Shown here in pieces: positions 18,321 to 23,264 of a stretch of 64,000 nucleotides of DNA. Location of the stretch: assembly GCF_018882095.1 (NCBI RefSeq), contig NZ_JACVPD010000002.1, positions 1 through 64,000 on the forward strand, in the 5' to 3' direction. The DNA is from Polynucleobacter sp. CS-Odin-A6 (GTDB lineage: Bacteria > Pseudomonadota > Gammaproteobacteria > Burkholderiales > Burkholderiaceae). A program made the position numbers and the translations under genes. The number at the start of each line of letters is the position of its first letter. Within the stretch, counting starts at the first letter, position 1. Under the pieces are notes generated by a model. That model searched no databases. It worked only from the letters and a program-made list of their open reading frames with translations, and had not been told where the DNA came from.

Positions 18321-18352
18321 AGCTTGAAATACTAAATCAGCGGCATTAAAAC

Positions 18353-18387
18353 AAAAGCCTCTTAGTCGCAAGACCTAGAGGCTTTTT
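18353..18387 (+). terminator. Intrinsic terminator after ilvD
   Basis: AAAGCCTCTTAG and CTAGAGGCTTTTTT flank a 10-nt loop, about 30 bp after the stop; the stem ends in six T. Confidence 0.85.
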
Positions 18388-18419: not shown

Positions 18420-18893
18420 CTAGTGCTTCATCGCCCCGCCGTGAGCACCCATGGCATTCACAGGCAGTTTCACTTCCACTTCACCAGCTTTAGCAAACTT
18501 GAGCTTGAGTGGCACAGTCTCACCAGCAGCCAAAGGAGCCTTAATGTTCATGAACATTAAATGCATACCACCGGGCTTTAACTCAACAGCGCCACCTGCT
18601 GGCACGGCAATATCTTTCACTTGGCGCATTTTCATGACATTGCCCTCCATTGCCATTTCATGCAATTGCACTTCGCTAGCCACTGGTGAGCTAGCGGATA
18701 GCAACTGGTCGGCGTTACTACCCTTGTTTTCAATCTTCATAAACCCGCCCGCAGCCATTTGGCCAGGAACAGTAGAGCGGGTATAGGCGTTCTCAATTTT
18801 GATTGCGTTGACAGAAGCGCTCTGCGCAAATACAGACCCGCTTAAGGTGATACCCATTGCCACACAGATGGTAACGAATACATTTGATTTCAT
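18420..18893 (-). CDS. Periplasmic PCu(A)C copper chaperone
   Basis: A 157-residue secreted protein with a signal peptide cut after SVFA (about residue 23). It carries the complete copper site of the PCu(A)C family: His78, Met89, His111 and Met113 with the exact H-x10-M-x21-H-x-M spacing. These chaperones hand Cu(I) to cytochrome oxidase. The start at 18893 has AGGGGAG 7 nt upstream; an upstream in-frame ATG at 18938 would spoil the signal peptide. It is the last gene of the copper-type cluster, 46 bp after the TlpA-like gene. Confidence 0.93.
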   Translation of the reverse strand: MKSNVFVTICVAMGITLSGSVFAQSASVNAIKIENAYTRSTVPGQMAAGGFMKIENKGSNADQLLSASSPVASEVQLHEMAMEGNVMKMRQVKDIAVPAGGAVELKPGGMHLMFMNIKAPLAAGETVPLKLKFAKAGEVEVKLPVNAMGAHGGAMKH

Positions 18894-18939
18894 ATTAAAA
18901 CTCCCCTGGTTATTCTTTAACAATGACATCTTAGACAAC

Positions 18940-19413
18940 TTAAGTACCCTTACTTAAGAAACTTTGTAGCATCTGAAAATCAATTAAGCCAGTCTTTCTG
19001 GACGACTTACCATTCTGATCGATCAGAATAGTGATTGGCGTTTCACCCTGCCATTTCGGATCGATTTCATAACGCACACGCTCATCAAATGCTGAAGCAA
19101 TATAGTAATTATTTTCTCGCTCAAGCCCTGCTTTACTCAGCATTTTTTTTATTGCATTAGGAGAAACATCATCTACCTGAATAAAGATTACCTTGGCACC
19201 TGGATGACGCTTTAAAAAACTACCCCATTGTGGCATTTCCTTAACGCAAGCGGGACAGGTAACACCCCAAAAATGAATCGCTACTGGCGTACCTAGTGAG
19301 CTCTTAACCCCAGCCCAATCACCGCTTTGATAAGGCTTTAGGTTGAAGGTATCTGCTAATGCCGGACCAGCTATTGACAGCAGCATCAGGCAGATCATTA
19401 AATACTTTTTCAT
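18940..19413 (-). CDS. TlpA-like periplasmic thioredoxin-fold protein
   Basis: A 157-residue protein with a signal peptide (cut after PALA, residue 20), a thioredoxin fold and the active site CPAC at residues 53-56 (HFWGVTCPAC). The cis-proline region is TPITILID. TlpA/ScoI-type reductases keep copper-binding cysteines reduced during oxidase assembly. Its start overlaps the stop of the sialidase-like gene by 4 bp (ATGA), so the two are translated together. The context with a PCu(A)C chaperone points to copper delivery. Confidence 0.85.
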   Translation of the reverse strand: MKKYLMICLMLLSIAGPALADTFNLKPYQSGDWAGVKSSLGTPVAIHFWGVTCPACVKEMPQWGSFLKRHPGAKVIFIQVDDVSPNAIKKMLSKAGLERENNYYIASAFDERVRYEIDPKWQGETPITILIDQNGKSSRKTGLIDFQMLQSFLSKGT

Positions 19414-20660
19414 TGCTTCTGTCCAATTTTAATAAGTTGATATCCATCGATCCGTGTAAGCCAAGACAACATGACATCCTCATGATGGCTCAACAATAAA
19501 GGATGATCGCTATATCCCGCTGTTCTGGAAATCAACCGGGGAGCACTCCAGGTCTTACCGTCATCCATGGAGTCTTTTGTATATATCGCTGAATAGGAAC
19601 CATCAAACTCTTTCCACACTAGCCAGACTTGACTGCCTGATGCCAACAAGTATGGCCTAGATACATTAGCCCCCTCTGAACCTATACGCACTGGCTTTGA
19701 GTAGCTTAAACCTTGATTACTCGAGTTCGCATAAAACACCCCAGAACGTTTGCTACCTTGTGTATACCAAGCCACATGAAACTTGCCTGTACCTGAAATA
19801 GCAATGGAGGGACCCTGATGAGGACAAGCATCTGTTTTCCAATCATCATCAGCCACTCTGCGGACTGACTCAGCCCCTGCATTGGCAATGACTTGCGTAG
19901 CGTGGTCTCGAATGCCTCCAGGAAAAATAGCGCGATAGGCAACCACGGGCTGACCCTTAGGATCTAGGCTCACACCAATGCGGCAACATTCACAACTACT
20001 GTCATTAGCAATACGTTCGGTCTGAAAAGTCTTGCCACCATCCCCTGAAAAAGCATAGGCAATTGACCCGCCAAGACGCTTCTCACCACCCTGCTTAGCC
20101 ATAGCCACTAAACGCTTATCAATCCAGGAAATAAAGACAGATCCATCCGGCCTGATTAATGCCGAAGGAAAGCGCTGACTTGACCCATCTCGTACCAATG
20201 ATTCAGGGGCAGTAAAGGTTTTGCCGCCATCAACAGATCTAGCGGTATTGATTTGTGCATTCCAGTTAGCATCCTTAAAAAATGAGTACGCTAAAAATAC
20301 ATTGCCCTGTTGATTAACTAAGATTTGTGGGCGAGCATCAGCACCCGTGTCTAAAGATTTGCCATGCTCAGCAATTTTGACTTCAGATGAGAATGTTTTC
20401 CCAAGATCGGATGACTGAGCTACAGATACCACTCCATTAGCAGTCCATGCTAGCAATAGCTTGCCATCCCCAGTCAAAAAAGGAGTGGCAGCATTAGCGC
20501 ATTCCAAACCAAATCCAACACATGATGCTGGCTTTGTTGCGGAAGCACCAGCCATATGAGACGAATGATTCATTTGAGCCAATACAGAATCAAACGCAAC
20601 TAGGCCCAAAGCACTCATTAAGAGCATCTTGAGAACGAGGCTACAGGATGTATTAGTCAT
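19410..20660 (-). CDS. Secreted sialidase-like beta-propeller with Cys/His/Met motifs
   Basis: A 416-residue protein with a signal peptide (residues 1-28), then MNHSSHM at the mature N-terminus. Asp-box (BNR) repeats are at 83-90, 142-149, 205-212 and near 365 (S-x-D-x-G-K-T-F/W), as in sialidase-fold propellers. A CECC motif lies at 223-226 and a C-x6-C pair at 47/54. The sialidase catalytic arginine triad is not evident, so a carbohydrate enzyme is unlikely. Motif content and neighbours suggest copper handling. It starts on the last base of the receptor gene and overlaps the TlpA-like gene. Confidence 0.75.
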   Translation of the reverse strand: MTNTSCSLVLKMLLMSALGLVAFDSVLAQMNHSSHMAGASATKPASCVGFGLECANAATPFLTGDGKLLLAWTANGVVSVAQSSDLGKTFSSEVKIAEHGKSLDTGADARPQILVNQQGNVFLAYSFFKDANWNAQINTARSVDGGKTFTAPESLVRDGSSQRFPSALIRPDGSVFISWIDKRLVAMAKQGGEKRLGGSIAYAFSGDGGKTFQTERIANDSSCECCRIGVSLDPKGQPVVAYRAIFPGGIRDHATQVIANAGAESVRRVADDDWKTDACPHQGPSIAISGTGKFHVAWYTQGSKRSGVFYANSSNQGLSYSKPVRIGSEGANVSRPYLLASGSQVWLVWKEFDGSYSAIYTKDSMDDGKTWSAPRLISRTAGYSDHPLLLSHHEDVMLSWLTRIDGYQLIKIGQKQ

Positions 20661-22822
20661 TAGAAGATGATACGTGCACCCACAGAAATTGCTTGTGGCA
20701 TACCCACGACATAGCCAGTATTGCTACTCCCGGTTCCAAAGGTGATGTATTGACGATTAAATAAGTTCACTGCAGATGCATATACAGTGGCATTTTTAGT
20801 CAACTCATAGTTAGCGCGTAGACCTACTACTGCATACGCAGCAACCGGCAGAGTATTGCTATTGTCCATCCATGAGCTTCCAATATAGCGAACCGTTGCA
20901 GTCAAGCTGGCTTGTGGAATTGGAAAATAAGTCAGACCGCCACCCAAAATATTTTGTGGAACTCCACCAACTTGCTTGCCAACCGGATCTGTTGTTGCTG
21001 TCCATGTTAATTTAGTGCTTGTAAACGCGTAGTTTGCATCTGTAGCCCACTGAGAATTAATGTCATGGTGGAATTGAAGTTCAATACCCTGACTGAGAAG
21101 ACTTTGATTATTAGTGTAATAACTGGAATTAGTTGAACAGCCGAGTGGGTTTCCTACGGTTGCACACAAACTATTCGCTAAGGCCTGTTGGCTTGGCTGA
21201 ATTTTATAACTCACAATCGCATTTTGAATGTAATTGTTAAAGGCAGTTAATTGTGCAAAACCACTCCTCCATCTGTAGTCTGTACCAACTTCATAACCCG
21301 TCATTGTTTCAGGAGTTAAGTTTGGATTTGCAAAAGAGTATCCAGTTCCAGAACCATAACTTCTTAAGGTGTTATTCATTCCAGGGGCATGAAAGGCCTG
21401 GTAAGCCGCTGAGCGCAAATCCCAATCCTTGCTTAACTTGTATAACAAACCCAGAGTAGGGCTTACCTGAGTTTTACTCTGATTTGGAACATTCTGATAC
21501 GAGGGTATTCCTGACAATCCAGCATTGTAAGATGTCGGCGTTTGACTACTCCATTGATCCAAACGGGCTGCCAAAGTTGCTTCTAAGGGAAATGATTCTG
21601 CTTTTGATTTCACTTGGCCCAATAAACCATAAAATGTTTGTTGACCTTTGCCATAGTTAACGGCAGTAACCGACCCAGCAGTACTCAGGTTATTGGTTTG
21701 AATGGAACCAGCGATATTGCGCGCATCTACACCCACAACATATTGATCAATTAAACCGGTTACTTCTCGAGTGTATTGCGCAGAGGCGCCTACAGTGCTG
21801 TAGGGGTCTTTATAGTTCGCATTGATATAAGGATAGTTTTTTGGATTTGATCCTGTAGCTGAAGTAGTTGACCCATTTTGCTTATTAAAGCCTGTATTCC
21901 CATAGAAGAAATTGACATCTACTTTTGACTTATCGTCTAAGCGAGTGGTTGTACCCCCAGCCAAGTCAGTCTCTTGAGTAATATTTGTAGCAAAGGCATA
22001 ACCTGACGAGAGATTTGACATGGTGTGATACCCCACGCGGAAGAACCCATTGGTGTCTTCAGTAGCTTTGAAATAACCCTGTAGTCTGACATTGGAGTTG
22101 TGTGAGGCTGCATCGCCTTGTCCATTCTTAATACTATTGGATGCGGCTGGAGAAATCGTCGCAATATTTTGATAGCCGTCGGTATTGAAATAATCAGCGG
22201 AGAATCTCAGCTGAAGATTTTCCGAGGCAATCAAATCCTTAGATGCGGCTACATTGCCAGCGCCAAATGCACCATAACTTGCTGAGACCTCTTGCTGACT
22301 ATTGACTGGTGTTTTAGTCTTGATATTAATCACGCCACCCATTCCGTAGTTACCCCATAGACTGGAAACTCCCCCACGAATAAACTCGACAGAATCAATC
22401 GATGACATAGGGACAAGGTTCCATTGGACAGTTCCATAAAAAGCATCGTTCGCTGGCACGCCATCAATCAATACTAAGGTCCTGGCATTACCGAGTCCCC
22501 GGACATTGATACTTTGTCCGGTGGGATCCTTTTGATAATAGGGTGTGTCATTCAAGATGATGCCTGGGACATTCTTTAATACCTGATCAATGGTTTGATC
22601 CGGTGAGATCTCCAGCATTTCCTTAGTCAAAATCGTCGTGTTTAGCGGAATCTCATCCAAAGGTGTCCCAGAACGGGTTGCACTGACAGTGACATTTTTC
22701 AACTTCTGATCGTAATCGGGCGGTGGGGCAATTTGAGCCTGAGCACCAACAACAGATAATGTTGGGCCAAATAGTATGCCAAGGCATACGCTTATTTTCT
22801 TTTGCTTAAACAACATCCTCAT
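20660..22822 (-). CDS. TonB-dependent outer-membrane receptor (probable copper or metal uptake)
   Basis: A 720-residue receptor with a signal peptide (cut near residue 29, GAQA), a plug domain (about 45-165; NVTVSATRSGTPLDEIP, INVRGLGNARTLVLIDGVP, SSLWGNYGMGGVINIKTK) and a 22-strand barrel ending in GMPQAISVGARIIF with the terminal phenylalanine. The TonB box is not obvious. A cysteine pair (CATVGNPLGC) lies in a late extracellular loop. The substrate cannot be read from the sequence; the DUF2946, PCu(A)C and thioredoxin neighbours favour copper, as for OprC-like receptors. Confidence 0.85.
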   Translation of the reverse strand: MRMLFKQKKISVCLGILFGPTLSVVGAQAQIAPPPDYDQKLKNVTVSATRSGTPLDEIPLNTTILTKEMLEISPDQTIDQVLKNVPGIILNDTPYYQKDPTGQSINVRGLGNARTLVLIDGVPANDAFYGTVQWNLVPMSSIDSVEFIRGGVSSLWGNYGMGGVINIKTKTPVNSQQEVSASYGAFGAGNVAASKDLIASENLQLRFSADYFNTDGYQNIATISPAASNSIKNGQGDAASHNSNVRLQGYFKATEDTNGFFRVGYHTMSNLSSGYAFATNITQETDLAGGTTTRLDDKSKVDVNFFYGNTGFNKQNGSTTSATGSNPKNYPYINANYKDPYSTVGASAQYTREVTGLIDQYVVGVDARNIAGSIQTNNLSTAGSVTAVNYGKGQQTFYGLLGQVKSKAESFPLEATLAARLDQWSSQTPTSYNAGLSGIPSYQNVPNQSKTQVSPTLGLLYKLSKDWDLRSAAYQAFHAPGMNNTLRSYGSGTGYSFANPNLTPETMTGYEVGTDYRWRSGFAQLTAFNNYIQNAIVSYKIQPSQQALANSLCATVGNPLGCSTNSSYYTNNQSLLSQGIELQFHHDINSQWATDANYAFTSTKLTWTATTDPVGKQVGGVPQNILGGGLTYFPIPQASLTATVRYIGSSWMDNSNTLPVAAYAVVGLRANYELTKNATVYASAVNLFNRQYITFGTGSSNTGYVVGMPQAISVGARIIF

Positions 22823-22892
22823 CCCACAAACAATATTGCGACAACCCCAGATGGGTTGCCAACTGCATAGCTAGGCTATGCCCTAAAAAGAA

Positions 22893-23264
22893 TTAGGTTG
22901 GTGTAGGGGGTGCTGCAGAAGGTGGAGTGATCCAAACCGCAAGTGGTTTGGGTGATTGATAGAACAGCTGTGGCAGCAAAGCGAGAGTTTGCGGCGCTTG
23001 AAATGTGAGGGTGGTATGAAAGGCGGGAGTGGTATTGCTCTGTGCCAAACAATAAGGGCACGGTTTGGCATCTGTAAGATCAGTCTGATCATTACTTGTC
23101 ACCTGCATCTGGGTCTTATTACCATCAGCCGAGCAAATCTCCATTGCAAAACCTTGGCCATGGTTCACAAGCGATACCGCTTGTGAAACTGTGGGGGCAA
23201 GTGCGCTCATAGCGATTGCTAGTGAAGCAATCCAGTGAATAAGGCGGTTTTTACGAAGATTCAT
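22893..23264 (-). CDS. DUF2946 family small secreted protein
   Basis: A 123-residue protein with an N-terminal hydrophobic signal (residues 10-30, WIASLAIAMSALAPTVSQA), a cysteine at EICSADG and a CPYC pair (residues 68-71), ending in a proline-rich tail. DUF2946 proteins are repeatedly found beside copper-type TonB receptors; their function is not known. It is the first gene of the five-gene minus-strand cluster, 70 bp before the receptor. TAAAAT 9 nt before the ATG could be a -10 giving an almost leaderless message. Confidence 0.75.
   Translation of the reverse strand: MNLRKNRLIHWIASLAIAMSALAPTVSQAVSLVNHGQGFAMEICSADGNKTQMQVTSNDQTDLTDAKPCPYCLAQSNTTPAFHTTLTFQAPQTLALLPQLFYQSPKPLAVWITPPSAAPPTPT

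Follow-up and report, generated by a model that had tools for sequence, protein, structure and literature searches.

A probable copper-acquisition operon in Polynucleobacter that carries a secreted Asp-box propeller paired with a thioredoxin

The operon and its reading

The subject of this work is a group of five genes on the minus strand of contig NZ_JACVPD010000002.1 of Polynucleobacter sp. CS-Odin-A6, the first 64,000 nucleotides of which are referred to here, at their full length, as the window. We read the group as a copper-acquisition operon and put the probability of this reading at roughly 0.8. Its genes are transcribed in the order DUF2946 leader, TonB-dependent receptor, secreted Asp-box propeller, TlpA-like thioredoxin and PCu(A)C chaperone (PCuAC), and the alignments mark four near-invariant cysteines, a CxCC motif and a later Cys-Pro, as the hallmark of the propeller family. 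The genome that holds the window is 2.1 Mb in size and its closest kin among named records are Polynucleobacter. The strand and gene order had been given in a preliminary description of the sequence, and the list of open reading frames (ORFs) and the Pfam matches bear them out. The gene overlaps it mentioned appear in the coordinates as 1 base between receptor and propeller and 4 bases between propeller and thioredoxin, and the motifs it named are in place: MNHSSHM and CECC at propeller residues 30-36 and 223-226, and the complete PCu(A)C site H-x10-M-x21-H-x-M as an exact match. It had further proposed that the five parts move copper from outside the cell to periplasmic oxidase assembly. This route is well supported by the CruR-type leader, by the OprC receptors that fill the corresponding slot in sister genomes and by the presence of the sole PCuAC in the cluster, and also because one oxidase with a CuA motif and one Sco are encoded elsewhere in the genome. 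The copper theme stands, and the leader drops out of the list of moving parts, DUF2946 being a regulatory CruR leader ORF and no transport component.

The leader gene and the RNA that follows it

The cruR-like leader gene (22893-23264, minus strand, 123 amino acids) matches DUF2946 (PF11162) with 54.3 bits against a cut-off of 23.7 and is the genome's only DUF2946 match. In two reports, DUF2946 proteins are described as copper-responsive leader ORFs (PMC9426467, PMC12992588); the CruR of B. pertussis is one of them, its nascent chain perceiving copper by a CXXC motif, and copper relieves an arrest of CruR at RAPP, which leads to Rho termination ahead of the receptor gene (PMC9426467). The window leader has a start that resembles a signal peptide (signal peptides were judged by eye throughout) and a CPYC that corresponds to the CXXC copper motif of CruR ORFs. 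The arrest motif RAPP or RGPP is absent from the window leader, which ends in TPPSAAPP instead, and AAPP is the arrest-defective control for B. pertussis CruR (PMC12992588). That PPSAAPP is a changed arrest motif replacing RAPP is a testable idea. Tails of the AAPP kind, like the TPPSAAPP encoded at the end of the window gene (22893-22931), occur in 37 of 106 CruR ORFs of relatives (duplicates included; Polynucleobacter and near metagenome-assembled genomes), the other tails including RAPP (39) and RGPP (17). Two loci, L032 and L197, carry a second CruR with PSRAPP; in L032 (4108-5456) this second cruR lies, together with two ORFs of 204 and 104 amino acids, between thioredoxin and PCuAC.

A region richer in C than in G (22833-23090, minus strand) covers the latter half of cruR and the intergenic DNA behind it, with C at 0.29-0.40 and G at 0.12-0.19 in 78-base windows, values taken without a shuffled control. 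It is of like kind to the C>G bubble of B. pertussis cruR, which is linked to Rho termination (PMC9426467). Three hairpins conserved across the genus lie on the same strand, one over the cruR stop codon (22882-22897) and two beyond it (22865-22881 and 22839-22861). Among 33 Polynucleobacter-type sequences their 18 base pairs are paired in 97.8% of alignment cells, changes on both sides are seen in 5 of the 18 pairs against 1.4 in shuffles, and sliding the partners lowers pairing to 26-38%; none of 500 shuffles did as well on five measures, a control that ignores kinship and hence gives no probability. The hairpins over the stop codon and gap are a possible RNA switch. For the related CutF of Rhodobacter, a stem-loop is described as covering the ribosome-binding site of the next gene (PMC9973294). 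A pairing between the receptor's ribosome-binding site and the cruR end was considered for our sequences and is not claimed: of the 33 folds, 32 show it, all but that of the window, where 2 of 5 bases pair, but so do 65% of random synonymous versions and 59% of shuffled ones, which places it only modestly above control. Because the leader is of the CruR type, carries CPYC and comes with a C>G bubble and conserved hairpins, the window operon is, by analogy, very probably copper-controlled, though the arrest motif differs.

The slot between leader and chaperone in sister genomes

Our strongest argument that the receptor, propeller and thioredoxin import copper is that OprC-type receptors occupy the same slot, between cruR and PCuAC, in sister Polynucleobacter. 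PCuAC gives one match, and DUF2946 one or more, in each of the 21 Polynucleobacter genomes tested. We inspected nine Polynucleobacter genomes that lack the propeller (loci L196 to L204), and in eight of these the slot holds something else. OprC-type receptors stand there in L198, L200 and L201 (594, 614 and 612 bits against the TIGR01778 cut-off of 472), in slots that contain neither propeller nor thioredoxin. Another receptor is found in L202, together with a copper-uptake-associated protein (NF033672), and further receptors in L204 and L197, that of L197 being similar to the one in L202 and accompanied by a small protein that looks similar as well; in L203 the slot holds a DsrE-like gene only. 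We see in the slot a place where import cassettes are exchanged. An ilvD gene adjoins it in seven of the nine genomes (not in L200 or L201), and the transporter gene forms the opposite flank in L197, L202, L203 and L204.

The two remaining genomes, L196 and L199, have in the slot a CASCGC protein of 346 amino acids, with a TlpA-like gene on the other strand. This protein, which contains CASCGCSLNTDIGTQGMG, is encoded after cruR (3686-4726 in L196, 3802-4842 in L199). At the limits used, neither Pfam nor NCBIfam gave a match for the L196 copy, and we regard the protein as a candidate for an unknown copper protein.

The chaperone and the oxidase

Proteins of the PCu(A)C family are known to carry Cu(I) to the CuA/Sco machinery. 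The window PCuAC matches PF04314 with 139 bits (cut-off 29.4) and is the only such match in the genome. Its gene spans 18420-18893 on the minus strand if it begins at the ATG behind AGGGGAG, the more likely start, or extends to the TTG at 18938. One COX1 and one Sco match were found in the genome, within an operon that reads COX2-COX1-CtaG-COX3-SURF1-CtaA-UbiA family-Sco; COX2 has a cytochrome c domain and CSELCGAQHAFM, which is the CuA ligand pattern. The best reading of these data is that the client of PCuAC is the genome's one aa3-type oxidase.

Conservation of the gene cluster

Of 200 genomes from the same family that were searched at the protein level, 56 have the propeller, including a weak partial match (G037) and a broken copy (G094), and the named relatives that have it include Polynucleobacter, Trinickia, Paraburkholderia, Nitrobacter, Bradyrhizobium and Reyranella. 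We took 120 loci, of which 113 are distinct by propeller sequence, and counted neighbors only over loci with enough flanking sequence, using codon-scored gene calls and profile searches for the GC-rich ones. In 106 of 107 loci the thioredoxin either lies no more than 400 bases downstream of the propeller or is fused to it (the exception, L068, is a weak match), a TonB receptor is upstream in 102 of 104, and the cluster begins with DUF2946 in 84 of 93. The co-occurrence of the five families, for which the preliminary description had suggested a survey, is in this sense conserved across the 113 distinct loci, with PCuAC taking part in only about half.

Some of these loci also went into the profiles used to find the neighbors, and Pfam tallies served as the independent check. 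These cover 52 loci that we picked for spread among the 120, plus the window, and consider only same-strand genes within 400 bases; besides the window, 51 loci were kept for the position before the propeller (-1), 39 for -2, 47 for +1 and 25 for +2. A receptor is at -1 in 49 of 52 cases, the other three being the ExbD of an ExbB-ExbD pair inserted between receptor and propeller. DUF2946 is at -2 in 36 of 40, and at +2 we found PCuAC in 17 and SCO1 in 2 of 26. At +1, Redoxin and AhpC-TSA each match 27 of 48 proteins at E 0.01.

Two wider samples were drawn. Of 398 evenly sampled Pseudomonadota genomes, 32 match at E 0.001 and 15, about 4% of the sample, score above 300 bits; among 12 of these 15 neighborhoods, a thioredoxin adjoins in all 12 and a same-strand receptor is upstream in 11. 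The class-wide sample gave 30 of 369 genomes with E < 1e-40, the window genome included (about 8%, remote members counted). Outside the window, 31 places in this sample were below the same limit, of which 30 were fetched and one contig-end fragment was left out; CxCC is present at all 30 and CPxxG at 29. A TonB gene follows the thioredoxin at three of the places (L238, L241 and L243) and a TonB-type gene precedes the receptor at another (L240), while the other neighbors (SET domain, sensor kinases, response regulator, macro domain, YaaA) are uninformative on copper. Because the synteny spans beta- and alphaproteobacteria, chance clustering is excluded.

The propeller and its cysteine site

The propeller gene (19410-20660, minus strand) encodes a secreted protein of 416 amino acids that matches BNR_2 with 40 bits (cut-off 31.4). 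In the structure model (pLDDT 81.9, pTM 0.83) seven blades were counted from the strands, and the top VIA-align rows are lectins of the PLL type, with CylK among them (Z about 28-31, rmsd 2.8-3.0, about 310 residues aligned). PLL lectins are seven-bladed, GH33 sialidases six-bladed. The window protein is therefore probably, as far as the model goes, a seven-bladed Asp-box propeller, and the earlier label "sialidase-fold" is imprecise.

One could nevertheless suppose that the protein is a sialidase-like, carbohydrate-active enzyme feeding a glycan receptor, with the copper genes adjoining by chance. The BNR_2 match, the sialidases among the Foldseek matches and the labels "sialidase family protein" and "exo-alpha-sialidase" given to remote relatives in plasmid records speak for this; the 50 VIA-align entries listed include no sialidase, which in itself excludes nothing. 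The FRIP motif of GH33 sialidases has, however, no counterpart in any of 136 aligned rows (first 140 residues searched), and CruR, the thioredoxin and often PCuAC are constant company. We rejected a sialidase function on the missing motif, which agrees with the earlier remark that sialidase residues are not evident, and consider the enzyme reading highly improbable. Invariant Arg residues are present in the alignment; GH33 sialidases have an Arg triad and a Tyr/Glu nucleophile.

What the family does conserve is a set of cysteines. CECC (C223, C225, C226) is encoded at 19983-19994 and the C279 of the Cys-Pro motif at 19824-19826, both on the minus strand. Conservation was judged from an alignment of 17 rows and then from one of 136 rows, in which duplicates between sets were kept: the three cysteines of CxCC are present in 134 rows, C279 in 135, R251 in 135, D252 in 134 and H295 in 134. 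The three cysteines are missing only from the weak match L068 and the broken copy L043. The latter (genome G094) belongs to a decaying operon, with the receptor in several frames and the propeller frame-broken, its main frame lacking CxCC, while thioredoxin and PCuAC are kept. In an alignment of 13 rows, two of them from members at 23-25% identity, the invariant set comes down to F164, W179, D181, C223, C225, C226, R243, W274, C279-P280, G283 and seven other positions. Since the strand order places both on blade connectors (3-4 for CxCC, 4-5 for C279), CxCC and C279 would lie on one common face of the modeled propeller, and the loops R251-D252 and D181-K182-R183 fall on the same face; this is topology taken from strand order and not a measured distance.

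The His/Met-rich MNHSSHM near the start of the mature protein (20553-20573, minus strand) is an example of a more general tendency: in 121 rows the N-terminal region contains 6.9% His against 2.6% elsewhere, and 77 of the 121 have two or more. Many members also have an extra N-terminal Cys pair that looks structural. This pair, and the fact that periplasmic proteins often have disulfides, would fit a propeller that partners the receptor in a structural or docking role, its disulfides merely proofread by the thioredoxin and no copper handled. A dedicated and sometimes fused thioredoxin would be excessive for mere proofreading, and a receptor-specific scaffold is disfavored by the receptors, which form four groups, those outside the window's own being at most 20% identical to the window receptor, while the propeller-thioredoxin pair is unchanged. 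The docking reading appears improbable to us.

We found no account of this propeller in the open literature; supplements, subscription papers and preprints were outside the search. So far as our searches of the open literature show, the propeller-thioredoxin module is undescribed, the CruR-headed TonB copper operon being already known. A remote CTCC propeller on a Pseudosulfitobacter plasmid (L205, NZ_CP054602.1), labeled "sialidase family protein", lies among copper genes, in a cluster with a copper oxidase, a copper-binding protein, an azurin-family protein, TolC, a DsbA-family protein and a P-type ATPase.

The thioredoxin and its fusions to the propeller

The thioredoxin gene (18940-19413, minus strand) encodes a secreted TlpA/ResA-like protein of 157 amino acids with the active site WGVTCPAC. 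It falls just below the Pfam cut-off (AhpC-TSA, 25.4 against 26), and with 20.7 bits against 230 it does not reach the TlpA equivalog NF047696. It is of the WxxxCxxC type, W49, C53 and C56 being invariant in 48 rows, and its PDB profile matches are StoA, TlpA and ResA. AhpC_TSA genes are mentioned in cruR operons (PMC9426467) and may include the propeller-linked thioredoxin.

Fusions of the two proteins are found in L103, L106, L108 and L110 (87-96% alike), in a fragment (L131) and in L236, which has CQCC; with L236 only 35% identical to the others, the fusion has at least two origins. A model of a fusion protein (pLDDT 79.3, pTM 0.69) shows both domains and does not fix their arrangement. Adjacency and fusions argue that the propeller is the client of the thioredoxin, and we hold it likely that the thioredoxin serves the propeller. 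The earlier suggestion that it keeps the propeller reduced has strong indirect support from the sequences, in the four near-invariant cysteines, the adjacency in nearly all loci and the fusions.

The receptor

The receptor gene (20660-22822, minus strand, 720 amino acids) encodes a TonB-dependent outer-membrane protein with Pfam barrel (136.2 bits) and plug (81.6 bits) domains, both over cut-off, which we propose as the copper importer. The 49 receptors at -1 form four groups of 28, 10, 8 and 3 members. Since the groups differ while the pair stays, the receptor is the changeable part of the cassette and the propeller-thioredoxin pair the constant one. Two known receptors were tried as identities and rejected. 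The window receptor is not an OprC, TIGR01778 not being among its 22 NCBIfam matches at E up to 0.1. Nor is it a CrtA, in which an invariant His358 is required (PMC12914433): in the 28-member window group no His reaches 90% conservation, the window receptor has its one Q/E-x-H at position 583, the conserved His of the Q-x-H pair is missing, which sets it apart from the published description, and the next gene is the propeller and not the PepSY_TM of CrtA loci. At the limits used, phmmer searches of PDB sequences with three receptors did not list the CrtA entries 9RVQ and 9RVX, from which no conclusion is drawn.

The proposed route and the evidence against it

By analogy with B. pertussis CruR, the leader would sense copper during its own synthesis and the operon would be expressed when copper is short. 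The TonB receptor would then bring copper, probably chelated, across the outer membrane, the His/Met-rich tail of the propeller may capture it in the periplasm, and the CxCC and Cys-Pro site would hold it as Cu(I) or reduce it. To judge from adjacency and fusions, the thioredoxin would renew the propeller thiols, and PCu(A)C would, as its family does, pass Cu(I) on to the one oxidase through its CuA/Sco machinery. We give the complete route slightly better than even odds. Whether the propeller, for which copper binding is a prediction, relays or reduces copper by means of its thiols we consider a balanced question.

A variant of the last steps is that propeller and thioredoxin form a periplasmic enzyme that reduces an imported Cu(II)-chelate to Cu(I), replacing PepSY_TM, with a pocket that binds the organic chelate. 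The pair does fill the position after the receptor that PepSY_TM holds in more than 75% of crtA loci (PMC12914433). The top fold matches include binders or processors of small molecules (PLL lectins, CylK, PL25), and conserved R183, R243, R251, D181, D252 and W274 accompany the cysteines. No chelate is known, though; a shared propeller fold shows no function; and sequence cannot separate a relay from reductive release. We think this variant unlikely, if somewhat less so than the docking reading.

Several observations weigh against copper acquisition or against parts of the route. The propeller is absent from nine Polynucleobacter genomes and broken in one, so it is dispensable in some genomes. 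Only one of the three OprC loci, L198, shares a flank with the window (ilvD), L200 and L201 being elsewhere, so that an OprC at the very position of the window cassette is backed by a single flank. PCuAC lies within 2.2 kb in only 50 of 99 loci. Only 19 of the 30 class-wide places have a same-strand thioredoxin after the propeller and only 18 a same-strand receptor before it, and the CruR profile matched none of the 30, several of which are on short contigs; because the copper leader was not found there, the copper role is unproven in these loci. The window leader lacks the arrest-motif Arg, so that CruR-type arrest may not apply. In the propeller, the closeness of the modeled cysteines is argued from strand order only, H253 is replaced by Gln in 26 of 136 rows, on which we rejected an obligatory His-based copper site, and H295 varies in remote members; any metal site would rest on the cysteines because these two histidines vary.

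With these points weighed, copper acquisition is the reading we retain for the operon. Its wider form, which we offer tentatively and at somewhat less than even odds, is that CxCC...CP propellers are new and widespread periplasmic copper proteins hidden as sialidases, that with their dedicated and sometimes fused thioredoxin they make up a redox-driven module, which takes over copper from TonB receptors of interchangeable kinds and hands it to oxidase assembly as Cu(I), and that in Polynucleobacter this is one of several exchangeable copper-import cassettes under a leader in which RAPP has become PPSAAPP. Copper acquisition pathways are called poorly characterized in the abstract of one recent report (PMC12914433). 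The transfer from receptor to chaperone is poorly known, and the propeller is a conserved candidate for it that has a mutable site and a natural redox partner. A misleading "sialidase" label is corrected for a family present in about 4% of sampled Pseudomonadota genomes, and the Polynucleobacter loci, in which leader and chaperone enclose differing import cassettes, constitute a natural swap experiment.

Flanking features

Upstream of the operon are genes resembling a tricarboxylate transporter, presumably tctABC, and downstream, on the other strand, is a gene that we take to be ilvD. A probable terminator (18348-18383, minus strand), with an AGCCTCT/AGAGGCT stem and a T run, was recognized by eye, its loop being longer than the limit of the terminator scan. 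A sigma-70 scan of the window was uninformative (7 sites against 10.0 in shuffles).

Comparison with known systems

The propeller has Asp boxes and the propeller fold in common with GH33 sialidases, PLL lectins, CylK and PL25 lyases, at about 6-16% identity to the Asp-box propeller structures listed. We know of no CxCC...CP site with a thioredoxin partner among these four. The TlpA of Bradyrhizobium, reportedly the reductant of ScoI and CoxB, shares with the window thioredoxin a periplasmic thioredoxin fold, the WxxxCxxC motif and a connection with copper-site assembly, from which the window protein differs in scoring below the TlpA equivalog cut-off and in being tied to a propeller gene.

The tccA-pccA-sco1 region of Caulobacter vibrioides resembles the window in that a TonB receptor is encoded near a PCuAC; according to the accessible text, this receptor, encoded near PccA and Sco1, is required for full aa3 oxidase activity, and there Sco1 adjoins and no propeller is mentioned (PMC12617631). 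A parallel in layout is cruR-crtA-crpH of B. pertussis (bp2923-bp2922-bp2921), in which DUF2946 also comes first and is followed by a TonB receptor (PMC9426467, PMC12914433), and which is linked to heme-copper oxidases, with PCuAC in a few related operons (PMC9426467, PMC12914433, PMC13038864). The window operon differs from it in a receptor without the CrtA-type conserved His, in a leader that ends in AAPP where B. pertussis CruR ends in RAPP, and in the propeller and thioredoxin that take the place of PepSY_TM.

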